A DNA stretch of 64,000 nucleotides from positions 1 to 64,000 of the forward strand of contig CANJWZ010000016.1 of NCBI GenBank assembly GCA_947478725.1, read 5' to 3'. The position numbers and the translations under genes are program-made. Positions 57,713-62,782 of this stretch are shown here, one piece after another (positions within the stretch are counted from its first letter, which is position 1; each line of letters begins with the position of its first letter). The notes under the pieces were generated by a model that saw only the letters and a list, made by a program, of their open reading frames with translations, was not told the DNA's origin and did not search any database. The DNA comes from Comamonadaceae bacterium. GTDB taxonomy: Bacteria; Pseudomonadota; Gammaproteobacteria; Burkholderiales; Burkholderiaceae_C.

Positions 57713-58669
57713 ATGAATTTACAGACCAAAACGGACTCTGCCCGAACTGCCGAAGCAAATCACTCTCAAGACGCTGGCGCGCGGGGCGATGACTCCGGTT
57801 ACGCCCAAGACAGCCAAGCCACTGCGCGTTTGGCCACCGACGCCAACCGGGAGGCTGTTGAGTTACGGCTGGCCTTGATTTCCCGGGCGATTGAAGACGA
57901 GATCATCCCGCGCCTCATGCTGGCGCACCCTACCGCAGGCGATTGCCTGCCCGTGGCATCACCCACCAGCACACCACAGGTCGGTCAGGATGAGGTCAGG
58001 GCTTTTGCGAAGCTGGTGCTCGAACCAGACGAAAACGTGGCCCATGCCTGCATTGAGGCCATGCGTACCAGCGGAATTTCAGTCGAAACCATTTACACCG
58101 ATTTGCTTGCGCCGGTCGCTCGTTACCTGGGTGAGTTGTGGGAGGACGATCTTTGCGACTTCACGCAGGTCACCGTCGGATTGGGGCGCTTGCAGCAGGT
58201 GCTCAGGGAACTCAGCCCGGCCTTTGGCCAGTCCAAGGTCGAAACCAGCGGAAACCGCGTGTTGCTTTTACCTGGGCCCGGCGAGCAGCACACCTTCGGC
58301 CTGGTGATGGTGGCCGAGTTCTTCAGGCGTGCAGGCTGGGACGTTGGCGGCGGCCCCTGGGAGGCCGGGGCCGACCCTGTGCTGATGGTCAAGCGTGAAT
58401 GGTTTGACGTGGTCGGCTTTTCGCTTGGCAATGTGGAGCAGCTCGACGACCTCGCCGCATGCATCAAAAGCGTGCGCGCAGCAGCCTTGAATAAATCGAT
58501 CTGCGTTATAGTTGGGGGGCCACTTTTTCTGGTCAATCCAGAGTACGTTGCCTACGTGAATGCAGATGCAGCGTCGACCGACGGCGCGCAAGCGCCAAGC
58601 TTGGCCGCGAGTTTGGTGGCTGCTGCGCGAGAACAAGGCGCTGGCGCGGGCAATCTCTTGGTCTCTTAG
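57713..58669 (+). CDS. ppaA: PpaA/AerR-like cobalamin-binding photosynthesis regulator
   Basis: SCHIC-type domain with WEDDLCDFTQVTVGLGRLQQVLREL and LLPGPGEQHTFGLVMVAEFFRRAGWDVGGGPW; start trimmed to 57713. Confidence 0.92.
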   Translation: MNLQTKTDSARTAEANHSQDAGARGDDSGYAQDSQATARLATDANREAVELRLALISRAIEDEIIPRLMLAHPTAGDCLPVASPTSTPQVGQDEVRAFAKLVLEPDENVAHACIEAMRTSGISVETIYTDLLAPVARYLGELWEDDLCDFTQVTVGLGRLQQVLRELSPAFGQSKVETSGNRVLLLPGPGEQHTFGLVMVAEFFRRAGWDVGGGPWEAGADPVLMVKREWFDVVGFSLGNVEQLDDLAACIKSVRAAALNKSICVIVGGPLFLVNPEYVAYVNADAASTDGAQAPSLAASLVAAAREQGAGAGNLLVS

Positions 58670-58730: not shown

Positions 58731-60179
58731 GTGAAGTCACCGCAACAGACAACAAAAGAAATCGCCATCGGGCAATTTGACAGCCCCGAGATGTTTCTAG
58801 CAGGTCTAGACGCGCAAACCACAGCTTCTTTAATTTCCGCTGCTGCTGACGTCGCTCTCATTTTGGATGAGCACGGGGTGATTCAGGATGTCGCTTTTAG
58901 CAACAACGAGCTGAAATACGGCCACCATGACTGGCTGGGCAAACCTTGGCTTGACACCGTCACCGTCGAAAGTCGGACCAAAGTTGAGGAAATGCTCAGC
59001 GAGGCCTTCAGCAACGGCAGTGCCAAGTGGCGGCATATCAACCATCCATCGGCCGACAGCGCCGACCTGGCACTTTTATACACCATCGTCCCGCTGAGCC
59101 GCGAGGCCGGCCCACACCGCTCGGTCGCCTTTGGCCGCGACTTGCGCGCACAGGTGGCGCTGCAACAACGCCTGGTCAGTGCTCAGCTGTCGATGGAGCG
59201 CGATTACTGGCGCTTGCGCCATGTGGAGACGCGCTACCGATTGCTGTTCCAGGTCGCCGCCGAGGCTGTGCTGATACTGGACGCCACGTCTGAAAAGCTC
59301 GAAGAGGCCAACCCAGCCGCCTACACATTGCTGGGCGACAAAGCGCGGTCCCCCACGTGGATGCTGAATCAAAGCCTGGACGCCTTAAGCGTGCCTGCGG
59401 TGTTGCAAATGTTTGCCGCATTGCGCCTGCGTGGGCGGGCCGACCCGATCACCGTGTGTTTTGCAGGCTCTTCTGATGTTTACACCCTGTCAGGGTCGCT
59501 GTTCCGGCAAGAAAACTCGACCCATTTTCTGATCCGGGTCACCCCCTTAAAACCGACCCAGGCCTCTTCTGAAAGCAGCATGGCGCAACTGCTGCTGCGC
59601 GTGGTTGACAACTGCCCAGATGCCTTTGCTGTGACCGACCTGGACGGCCGGGTGTTGACGGTCAACCGGGCTTTTCTGGAACTGACACAACTGGCCAGCG
59701 AAGCCCTGGTGCGCGGCGAGCCCTTGCAAAAGTGGCTGGGCCGCAGTGGCGTCGACATGAACGTGCTGATTTCCAACTTGCGCCAGCGCGGCACCGTCCG
59801 CTTGTTTGCCACCACACTGCAAGGCGAGTACGGATCGACAGCGGATGTCGAAATTTCAGCCGTCAGTGTGACGACTGGCGACCAACCATGCCTGGGCTTC
59901 ACGATTCGAGACATCGGCAGACGCTTGACGAACGAACCCCTGAGCAGCAAGGACCTGCCGCGCACAGCCAGCCAGATGACCGAGCTGGTGGGCCGCGTTC
60001 CACTGCGCGACATCGTGCGTGAAACCACTGATTTGATTGAAGACCTGTGCATACAGGCCGCGCTGGAATTAACAGGTGACAACCGCGCGGCCGCTGCCGA
60101 AATGCTGGGTTTGTCCCGGCAAAGTTTGTACGTCAAGCTCAAGCGTTTTGGCGTGAACGATGCGTTGGCTGAAAACTGA
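58731..60179 (+). CDS. ppsR: Transcriptional regulator PpsR/CrtJ (PAS domains plus Fis-type HTH)
   Basis: C-terminal DLCIQAALELTGDNRAAAAEMLGLSRQSLYVKLKRFGV; RYRLLFQVAAEAVLILDATSEKLEEANPAAYTLLG PAS; adjacent to ppaA. Confidence 0.95.
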   Translation: MKSPQQTTKEIAIGQFDSPEMFLAGLDAQTTASLISAAADVALILDEHGVIQDVAFSNNELKYGHHDWLGKPWLDTVTVESRTKVEEMLSEAFSNGSAKWRHINHPSADSADLALLYTIVPLSREAGPHRSVAFGRDLRAQVALQQRLVSAQLSMERDYWRLRHVETRYRLLFQVAAEAVLILDATSEKLEEANPAAYTLLGDKARSPTWMLNQSLDALSVPAVLQMFAALRLRGRADPITVCFAGSSDVYTLSGSLFRQENSTHFLIRVTPLKPTQASSESSMAQLLLRVVDNCPDAFAVTDLDGRVLTVNRAFLELTQLASEALVRGEPLQKWLGRSGVDMNVLISNLRQRGTVRLFATTLQGEYGSTADVEISAVSVTTGDQPCLGFTIRDIGRRLTNEPLSSKDLPRTASQMTELVGRVPLRDIVRETTDLIEDLCIQAALELTGDNRAAAAEMLGLSRQSLYVKLKRFGVNDALAEN

Positions 60180-60197
60180 CGGGGCTCAAAAAATAAG

Positions 60198-60262
60198 TTG
60201 GGCGCTACTAATTCGGTAGCTCTTCACCCATGTATCTAGTGGGCTTCAAGCCAAAAATCTAC
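60198..60262 (+). repeat. Dispersed GCTA-N9-AGC repeat copy between the two ppsR paralogs
   Basis: gcgctactaattcggtagctcttcacccatgtatctagtgggcttcaagcc. Confidence 0.6.
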
Positions 60263-60285
60263 CTAACCTCGACGGTTTAGATGGT

Positions 60286-61707
60286 TCAGGCGCCGCTCAG
60301 GTCCTGATTGAGCATGTCCAGTTGCTGTCGGTTGATGCCCAGCATGGTGGCAGCCTTGTTCAAGTCTGCGCCAGCCCGCTCCATCGCCATGCGGATGAAA
60401 TTGCGCTGCAAAACCTCCGAGGCACGCCGCATCAGCTCGGGCAGTGCGGCACTGCCGACCTGGTCACACAGCACCTTGACCGCCGCCTGCATCGGCTCGA
60501 CCGTCACAGAAATCTCGCCGCCAGTCGTGGGCGTGAGGCGAATGCTAAAGCCGATACAAGGCGGGTCAATCTCACTGAGCAAGGTGGCCGCTACTTCAAC
60601 CGGCCTGACGATAGCATCACGTGGCAGCACGTTTGAGGGCGCATAGCCTGTCATGCCTTCGCGGCTGACCCGCGCTAACAGGTCGGCAAAGGGCTCGTTC
60701 GGCAAGCTGAGCCAGTCCGACAGGGGTCGGCCGCGTACCGATGCCTCGGTGCTGGCTTGCACCAGCTTTAAAAACGCCGGGTTGGCCACCAGCACGCCAC
60801 CGTCTACATCGGTGACCGCCACGCCGTCGCTGGCGCTGTCGACCAGCCGCGCCAGTGTGGCGCCGAGGTTGCCCGACGAGCCCAACTGTTCGGTGGTTCT
60901 GATTCTGACCAGCAATTGCTGCGAGTCAACGACCCGGAAGGGTGTGGCTGTGACGCTGGTACTGGTGACGCGGCCCACAAGCTGGGCCCGCGTTTCGGTC
61001 GACTGCCCGGTTGCCAAGGCGCTGTTCAGCGCTGCGGTGACGATGTCGCGCGAATGTCGCTCAAAACCAAACGCAGCGTTTTGCCCAACCACCTGGGCCA
61101 ATGACAAGTCAAACAATTCAGTCGTGCTTTGGTTGGCTTCAATGATATTGAGCGTGCTGCCATCCACCACAATCACCGCATCAGTCGCCACTTGAAACAG
61201 CAGCCGGTAGCGCGCCTCGGCCTGCCGTGCCTGGGCGTAATTTCGCTCCATCTCACGCTGCGCGCCTATGAATTTTTGCTGCAAAGCCGCGCTGATGCCC
61301 AAGTCACGCCCCACGGCCAAAATCGGCCCACGCGCCCCCAGCCGCATGGCGGTGTAAGCCACGGGCACGATGGCACCGTCACCAGCGGGGTGATTGACTT
61401 CGCGTTTTCGGGTGGCGCAGGTCGGTGAGGCTTCAGCCATCAGCCGCTCGACTTTGGCTTTGCACTCGCTCGTCACGGTATCTGCCCACCGATGACCGAC
61501 CCAGGTGTGGGCGTCGCTGGCCAGCGGTGTTGATGCACGCTGGTCCACACGCTGCACCACGCCGGCCTCGTCAATCACCAGGGCGATATCGCCGCCCAAA
61601 GACACCATGGTTCGGGCAAGCTCGGGCGCCCACTCAGACAATGACTCTGAAAAGGTGGATGCTGCGCTCGCTTCATTCGAACGGATCGCGTTCATTGCCT
61701 CGGTCAT
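60286..61707 (-). CDS. Second PpsR/CrtJ-like PAS regulator with divergent C-terminal HTH
   Basis: ALVIDEAGVVQRVD..., RYRLLFQVATDAVIVVDGSTLNIIEANQSTTELFDL, DGVAVTDVDGGVLVANPAFLKLVQASTEASVRGRPLSDWL parallel PpsR; C-term VLQRNFIRMAMERAGADLNKAATMLGINRQQLDMLNQDLSGA. Confidence 0.9.
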   Translation of the reverse strand: MTEAMNAIRSNEASAASTFSESLSEWAPELARTMVSLGGDIALVIDEAGVVQRVDQRASTPLASDAHTWVGHRWADTVTSECKAKVERLMAEASPTCATRKREVNHPAGDGAIVPVAYTAMRLGARGPILAVGRDLGISAALQQKFIGAQREMERNYAQARQAEARYRLLFQVATDAVIVVDGSTLNIIEANQSTTELFDLSLAQVVGQNAAFGFERHSRDIVTAALNSALATGQSTETRAQLVGRVTSTSVTATPFRVVDSQQLLVRIRTTEQLGSSGNLGATLARLVDSASDGVAVTDVDGGVLVANPAFLKLVQASTEASVRGRPLSDWLSLPNEPFADLLARVSREGMTGYAPSNVLPRDAIVRPVEVAATLLSEIDPPCIGFSIRLTPTTGGEISVTVEPMQAAVKVLCDQVGSAALPELMRRASEVLQRNFIRMAMERAGADLNKAATMLGINRQQLDMLNQDLSGA

Positions 61708-61835: not shown

Positions 61836-61853
61836 TGTAAATATAAATTGACA
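61836..61853. promoter_or_regulatory. PpsR/CrtJ box, perfect TGT-N12-ACA
   Basis: TGT-AAATATAAATTG-ACA. Confidence 0.8.
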
Positions 61854-61861
61854 CAAGCAAA

Positions 61862-61879
61862 TGTCAATTAAATAATACA
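61862..61879. promoter_or_regulatory. PpsR/CrtJ box, perfect TGT-N12-ACA
   Basis: TGT-CAATTAAATAAT-ACA, 8 bp from the preceding box and 3 bp before the bchG ATG. Confidence 0.8.
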
Positions 61880-61882
61880 CGC

Positions 61883-62782
61883 ATGCTCACTTTGGCCCCG
61901 CGCCCGTCCTTTGCAACAGTCACAGAACTGTTCAAACCCATCACCTGGTTCCCGCCGATGTGGGCGTTTGCTTGCGGCGTGGTTGCCTCTGGCGTGGCCA
62001 TGCAGGGCAAATGGTTGCTGGCGGTGGTGGGTGTGGCGCTGGCAGGACCCTTTGTGTGTGCCACCAGTCAGGCCGTCAATGACTGGTATGACCGTCACGT
62101 CGATGCCATCAATGAGCCGATGCGGCCGATTCCTTCGGGACGTATGCCCGGCCAATGGGGGTTTTATATCGCCGTGCTGTGGACGCTGATCTCCATGCTG
62201 GTGGCTACAGTGCTCGGTTTTTGGGGCTTTTGCGCAGCAGTAGTGGGCTTGCTGCTGGCCTGGGCCTACAGTGCTCCGCCGATTCGCCTGAAAGAAAACG
62301 GCTGGTGGGGCAATGCGGCCTGCGGCTTCAGTTACGAGGGCATTGCCTGGGCAACCGGCGCTGCGGTAATGGCCGGTGGCGTGATGCCCGACAGTCGCTC
62401 GCTCGCGCTCGCCTTGCTCTACAGCATTGGCACCCACGGCATCATGACGCTGAACGACTTCAAGGCGGTTGACGGTGACCGGCAAATGGGCGTGCGGTCG
62501 CTGCCGGTCCAGCTGGGCGTGCAAAACGCGGCTCGCGTGGCTTGCGGCGTGATGATCGCGTCGCAATTGGTGGTCGTGGGCTTGCTGCTGATCTGGGGCA
62601 AGCCGGTACACGCTGCCTGGATCGCGGGATTGATGGCGGCACAACTGATCATGATGCGTCGGTTTTTGGCCAGTGTGACAGAGCGCGCCCTGTGGTACAG
62701 CGGCTTTGGCGTGCCCCTGTTCGTGGCCGGCATGATGGTCAGCGCCTTTGCGCTGCGCGGCTTGATCGAAGCTGGCATGTGA
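61883..62782 (+). CDS. bchG: Bacteriochlorophyll synthase
   Basis: ELFKPITWFPPMWAFACGVVASG; SQAVNDWYDRHVDAINEPMRPIPSGRMPG. Confidence 0.97.
   Translation: MLTLAPRPSFATVTELFKPITWFPPMWAFACGVVASGVAMQGKWLLAVVGVALAGPFVCATSQAVNDWYDRHVDAINEPMRPIPSGRMPGQWGFYIAVLWTLISMLVATVLGFWGFCAAVVGLLLAWAYSAPPIRLKENGWWGNAACGFSYEGIAWATGAAVMAGGVMPDSRSLALALLYSIGTHGIMTLNDFKAVDGDRQMGVRSLPVQLGVQNAARVACGVMIASQLVVVGLLLIWGKPVHAAWIAGLMAAQLIMMRRFLASVTERALWYSGFGVPLFVAGMMVSAFALRGLIEAGM

Follow-up and report, generated by a model that had tools for sequence, protein, structure and literature searches.

A widespread family of PpsR paralogs in Burkholderiales with a predicted loss of DNA recognition and frequent linkage to phytochrome genes

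PpsR is the master repressor of photosynthesis in purple bacteria, and the BphP-PpsR2 interaction is the basis of a near-infrared optogenetic pair. In the PpsR tetramer of R. sphaeroides, Arg339 and Leu340 of PAS2 touch Glu138 and Gln134 of the Q-linker (PMC3949515), and six Q-linker residues have been proposed to face the co-regulator AerR (PMC9144470). Rubrivivax gelatinosus has a single ppsR, and repression persists when its Cys is mutated (C436A; PMC4452267), so loss of the HTH Cys alone tells little. A second copy, PpsR2, is found in Bradyrhizobium and Rhodopseudomonas beside bphO and the gene of a kinase-less BphP (PMC10569730, PMC6899989). In most strains this alphaproteobacterial PpsR2 does not have the HTH Cys, and its binding by BphP1 is light-dependent (PMC6899989). 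In the BphP1-QPAS1 pair a fragment of RpPpsR2, consisting of the Q-linker and PAS1, suffices for BphP1 binding (PMC13058837). Within Burkholderiales, a crtJ homologue, ORF350, has been reported besides ppsR in Roseateles depolymerans, with no role assigned (PMC10037100). By its description it is likewise a second ppsR/crtJ-like gene in a Burkholderiales photosynthesis cluster; its link to a phytochrome and the state of its HTH are not addressed in that paper (PMC10037100). In the literature searched, which leaves most subscription journals outside, no description of betaproteobacterial ppsR2-bphP modules was found.

The window, a stretch of 64,000 nucleotides from a Comamonadaceae bacterium, contains two ppsR genes that converge. 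Upstream lies ppaA/aerR (57713..58669, plus strand), encoding a B12-binding co-regulator (Pfam B12-binding and B12-binding_2) whose start codon is uncertain, the reading frame being open from 57599. It is followed by ppsR1 (58731..60179, plus strand), a normal PpsR/CrtJ of the TIGR02040 family with N-PAS, Q-linker, PAS1, PAS2 and a Fis-type HTH. A spacer of 106 bp (60180..60285), in which a strong RNA fold was looked for and none was found (z -1.4), separates it from ppsR2 (60286..61707, minus strand). The convergence, the coordinates and strands, the C-terminal sequences of the two proteins and their lengths (482 and 473 aa) were all as given in the first-pass annotation. Divergent from ppsR2 is bchG (61883..62782, plus strand), bacteriochlorophyll synthase-like and named from its sequence and its position in the cluster, without a profile search. 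The two genes are also neighbours in sister lineages. Between them are two PpsR-type palindromes of the form TGT-N12-ACA, TGTAAATATAAATTGACA (61836..61853) and, 8 bp after it, TGTCAATTAAATAATACA (61862..61879). The candidate binding DNA named earlier at 61836-61879 is thus borne out; this is the sole pair with such spacing within the window, and a pair occupies the same location in close relatives.

PpsR1 and PpsR2 are 32% identical over 442 aa (BLASTP, 209 bits). PpsR1 scores 490.2 bits against TIGR02040, whereas PpsR2 with 263.6 bits falls just under the cut-off of 275.4; likewise HTH_8 gives 40.6 for PpsR1 and 20.5 for PpsR2, below the gathering threshold of 22. The scaffold of N-PAS, Q-linker, PAS1 and PAS2 is kept in PpsR2, as seen from its match to 4hh2 (E 4.8e-36) and a Foldseek search (6e-30). 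Both proteins share the domain order of R. sphaeroides PpsR (N-domain, Q-linker, PAS1, PAS2, HTH). They had been read as PAS-PAS-HTH proteins; the HTH stands, but there are three PAS-like units (N-domain, PAS1 and PAS2) as in 4HH2, not two. The AlphaFold model of PpsR2 has a mean pLDDT of 91.5, and the HTH region (residues 421-473; 60289..60447, minus strand) is predicted to be folded, with helices at 422-444, 449-456 and 460-472. Since all three HTH helices are still present in the model, it is the recognition-helix surface that has changed and not the fold. PpsR2 therefore resembles the PpsR/CrtJ proteins of Rhodobacter and Rubrivivax in its architecture, its place in a photosynthesis gene cluster and its 4HH2 match, but differs from them in lacking the HTH Cys, the DNA-contact residues and the PAS2 residues of tetramer docking, and in scoring below the family cut-off.

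The two features of the PpsR/CrtJ HTH, a recognition helix of the type SRQSLYxKLRR and the redox Cys, are both absent from the window PpsR2. Cys440 of PpsR1 (codon 60048..60050, plus strand) aligns with Phe437 of PpsR2 (60397..60399, minus strand), confirming the substitution noticed earlier. The Cys is found in 59/63 PpsR1 representatives, whereas the 58 representatives of the PpsR2 clade have Phe or Leu only. The description of PpsR2 as redox-blind does follow from the loss of this Cys, yet it explains little, as the C436A mutant of Rubrivivax represses still (PMC4452267). The recognition helix of PpsR1, LGLSRQSLYVKLKRFG, is near-invariant among PpsR1 representatives. In PpsR2 the corresponding helix, NRQQLDMLNQDLS (60292..60330, minus strand), does not have the basic second half; its first half, NRQQL, is retained, so the helix is altered as had been proposed, but not lost as a whole.

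This is not a peculiarity of one genome. In a tree built from pre-HTH columns only, the 58 PpsR2 representatives form one Burkholderiales-wide clade (SH-aLRT 100, the sole branch support in our trees, and with many metagenome assemblies among the sampled genomes). PpsR2s of the window type occur in about 31 of the 65 genomes with a PpsR match in the family sample, and records retrieved with the PpsR2 query came from Polaromonas, Rhodoferax, Methylibium, Variovorax, Rhizobacter, Piscinibacter, Ideonella, Rubrivivax, Roseateles and Hydrogenophaga. The mean pairwise identity of the recognition helix is 0.89 among PpsR1s and 0.28 among PpsR2s, whereas three regions before the HTH are conserved to a similar or higher degree in PpsR2 (PpsR1/PpsR2: N-domain 0.47/0.57, Q-linker 0.68/0.68, PAS1 0.41/0.47). 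At a matched PAS identity of 40-50%, helix identity is 0.89 for PpsR1 and 0.23 for PpsR2, and at 70-80% it is 0.97 and 0.65, respectively. Throughout the PpsR2 clade the fold core of the HTH is retained (alignment columns A606, A607, L610, G611 and L617), whereas the DNA-facing positions vary (N602, R603, S613, R614, Q615, Y618 and others). Judged from these comparisons, PpsR2 is a widespread Burkholderiales family without the residues that PpsR uses on DNA, and the window member, by its TIGR02040 score, its place in the clade and its model, appears to be a DNA-recognition-deficient paralog. The weak DNA binding suggested in the first-pass annotation is thereby well supported across the clade. 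As a separate observation, many PpsR2s of the sub-branch with a longer HTH tail (L041, L042, L043, L048, L049, L051, L053 and L056) have a C-terminal ending in common, -LLN or a similar sequence (-SIN, -ALN, -SLN, -LIN).

The main rival reading is that PpsR2 does bind DNA, with an altered or lineage-specific preference, either alone or as the weak half of a heterotetramer. The retained fold core and the confidently modelled HTH are in its favour, and the completeness of the HTH in the model leaves room for weak binding. Furthermore, one sub-branch (Ideonella, Roseateles and others) retains a semi-basic helix, LRxQRHGL, so the extent of the loss varies and PpsR2s of this branch might still bind DNA, to judge by their residues. 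The window PpsR2 itself keeps Arg and Gln at two otherwise invariant positions, and in its clade the HTH A-C segment is unchanged. Against this reading stand the helix identity of PpsR2 even at 70-80% PAS identity, compared with that of PpsR1, and full deletions of the HTH that have been tolerated several times. We consider it unlikely.

Such deletions are found in a second Burkholderiales family (f30), where four of six PpsR2s end directly after PAS2 and bphP begins at once; the remaining two keep the Cys and have an altered helix. In genome G319, too, the ppsR2 frame stops after PAS2, and a search for an HTH in the other frames found none. A further candidate, L093, was left out of the count, as it comes from a metagenome assembly with a frameshift and its HTH lies in another frame. 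The PpsR2s of f30 cluster with Bradyrhizobium PpsR2 and apart from the window clade, and a single joint clade of beta and alpha PpsR2s is not rejected by the AU test (p 0.47). With f30 placed near Bradyrhizobium PpsR2, the tree suggests that DNA reading may have been lost more than once. The f30 loci (L236-L241) have a ppsR2-bphP-bphO module of the Bradyrhizobium type. In Bradyrhizobium itself (L159) ppsR2 is followed by bphP and bphO, but the recognition helix, SRQSLYAKL, is intact. The analogy drawn earlier with the two PpsRs of Bradyrhizobium therefore holds for a phytochrome-linked second copy, common to both groups, and fails for the state of the helix. The alpha PpsR2, described as a repressor, retains this helix as well as R339 and L340, whereas the beta PpsR2 has lost both features. 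The natural PpsR2s that lack an HTH and adjoin bphP resemble QPAS1, a PpsR2 part that binds BphP1 without an HTH; QPAS1, unlike them, is artificial, also lacks the N-domain and PAS2, and does not oligomerise (PMC13058837). A PpsR of the Bradyrhizobium type encoded beside bchG (L159:9962-11407, L160:2124-3569, L164:2522-3964) has Ser in place of the HTH Cys and an intact recognition helix.

Changes in PpsR2 also concern the tetramer interface. Gly354-Tyr355 of the window PpsR2 (60643..60648, minus strand) replace the Arg339-Leu340 of R. sphaeroides PpsR (PMC3949515). Arg is present at the first position in 55/63 PpsR1s but 13/58 PpsR2s, and Leu at the second in 57/63 and 4/58, respectively; L340 is absent from the f30 PpsR2s, too, whereas the alpha PpsR2 retains both residues. 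Their docking partners on the Q-linker are kept in PpsR1 and PpsR2 alike, and the docking face of the PpsR2 Q-linker helix (residues 136-175; 61183..61302, minus strand) is conserved. With the PAS2 docking residues lost and the Q-linker acceptors kept, PpsR2 would form weak homotetramers yet could accept the PAS2 of PpsR1. PpsR1-PpsR2 heteromers are thus plausible, as the pattern of interface residues fits them.

The same Q-linker could alternatively serve as a mere sink for PpaA/AerR (B12) with no contact to PpsR1. Q133, Q140, E144, Y147 and R151 are retained in PpsR2, and five of the six residues proposed to face AerR are thereby kept (PMC9144470); furthermore, ppaA lies 5' of ppsR1 in the relatives as in the window. 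However, L136 is replaced by F across the whole PpsR2 clade, and ppsR2 is linked to bphP and not to ppaA, which makes a pure sink improbable.

At most PpsR2 loci, bphP starts some 20-130 bp 3' of ppsR2 on the same strand, with bphO convergent to it. The reference BphP (L166:7746-9911) has a PAS-GAF-PHY-PAS architecture without a kinase, and its output must therefore be a protein partner. A BphP of this type is present in 28/35 genomes with PpsR2 and in 0/38 genomes with PpsR1 only (Fisher p = 5e-14, a test that treats the genomes as independent, which they are not). One genome, G474 (L189), seemed to be a counter-example, with PpsR2 and BphP but no detectable PpsR1. It is rated 100% complete, and pufM, pufC and ppsR2-bphP-bphO are present; as bchN is not detected either, an assembly gap is likelier than a true absence of PpsR1, and the case was set aside.

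The window lineage has lost bphP and bphO. In the sister lineages (L166, L090, L100 and L101) about 2.8 kb with these two genes lie between ppsR1 and ppsR2, at the site of the 106-bp spacer. The bphP gene next to ppsR2 seen in the alpha-type arrangement is absent from the window locus, and searches of the window genome found no phytochrome (PHY domain and BphP query) and no haem oxygenase. The window PpsR2 is accordingly an orphan of the phytochrome module. In three of four lineages that have lost bphP, the conservation of the Q-linker is below that of every BphP-containing neighbour. Such a drop is expected where BphP binding constrains the surface, but it may reflect a general acceleration instead.

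The gene is nevertheless real and maintained. Relatives with PpsR2s of 99, 96 and 90% identity share an altered helix identical in type, which excludes a sequencing error or frameshift. An intact helix in close relatives, the finding that the first-pass annotation had named as speaking against its reading, was looked for in these three and not encountered. Together with a fourth relative (about 75%) they share the HTH up to NRQQL, where the recognition helix starts, and most of their differences lie close to the C-terminus. Pairwise dN/dS within the window clade is well below 1 wherever dS could be estimated, indicating purifying selection on ppsR2, and for HTH helices A-C dN is 0 within the 90% pair. 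That PpsR2 of the window lineage is a decaying remnant, as the loss of bphP and bphO, the long stem leading to the window clade in the PpsR tree and the shortened C-terminus might suggest, is very improbable given an ORF that stays open, dN values much lower than dS in four other genomes and helices A-C without amino-acid change in the 90% pair.

We regard it as reasonably likely that PpsR2 is a DNA-blind adaptor that acts through PpsR1, under light control by BphP elsewhere and orphaned in the window lineage. PpsR2 retains the PAS/Q-linker scaffold and a folded HTH core without the DNA-contacting face of the helix, and would enter PpsR1 oligomers, cap them, or bind co-regulators that the two proteins share; its signals probably reach PpsR1 by protein contact and not by DNA binding of its own. 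It may thereby alter the occupancy of PpsR1 at TGT-N12-ACA pairs, for example that in front of bchG. Where PpsR2 occurs in Burkholderiales, the kinase-less BphP from the adjoining 3' gene would in most cases switch it by red/far-red light, giving the order light, BphP, PpsR2, PpsR1, DNA. As bphP and bphO are missing, PpsR2 of the window lineage would modulate PpsR1 independently of light, possibly through PpaA. The wider proposal, a light-signalling relay evolved in Burkholderiales phototrophs that runs from kinase-less BphP over DNA-blind PpsR2 to PpsR1 by hetero-oligomerisation, with repeated loss of the HTH and an adaptor that sometimes outlasts its photoreceptor, is more speculative, and we put it forward tentatively.

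If true, a natural PpsR2 family that has given up DNA reading, repeatedly and next to bphP, would mean that the light-input function is separable from the repressor function. The suspected PpsR heteromer would be open to direct testing, and the PpsR2s without an HTH would be natural candidate partners of BphP. The four lineages that have lost bphP offer a comparison showing what a phytochrome partner constrains.

At two loci (L116:1748-5081 and L121:6873-8804) ppsR2-bphP adjoins prkA, in L116 also yhbH, rather than photosynthesis genes, a placement that counts against the adaptor reading. The window genome encodes four BLUF-domain genes (G000:C5:71051-71326, C43:2611-2889, C4:83318-83593 and C32:23632-23907), all on contigs other than that of the window.
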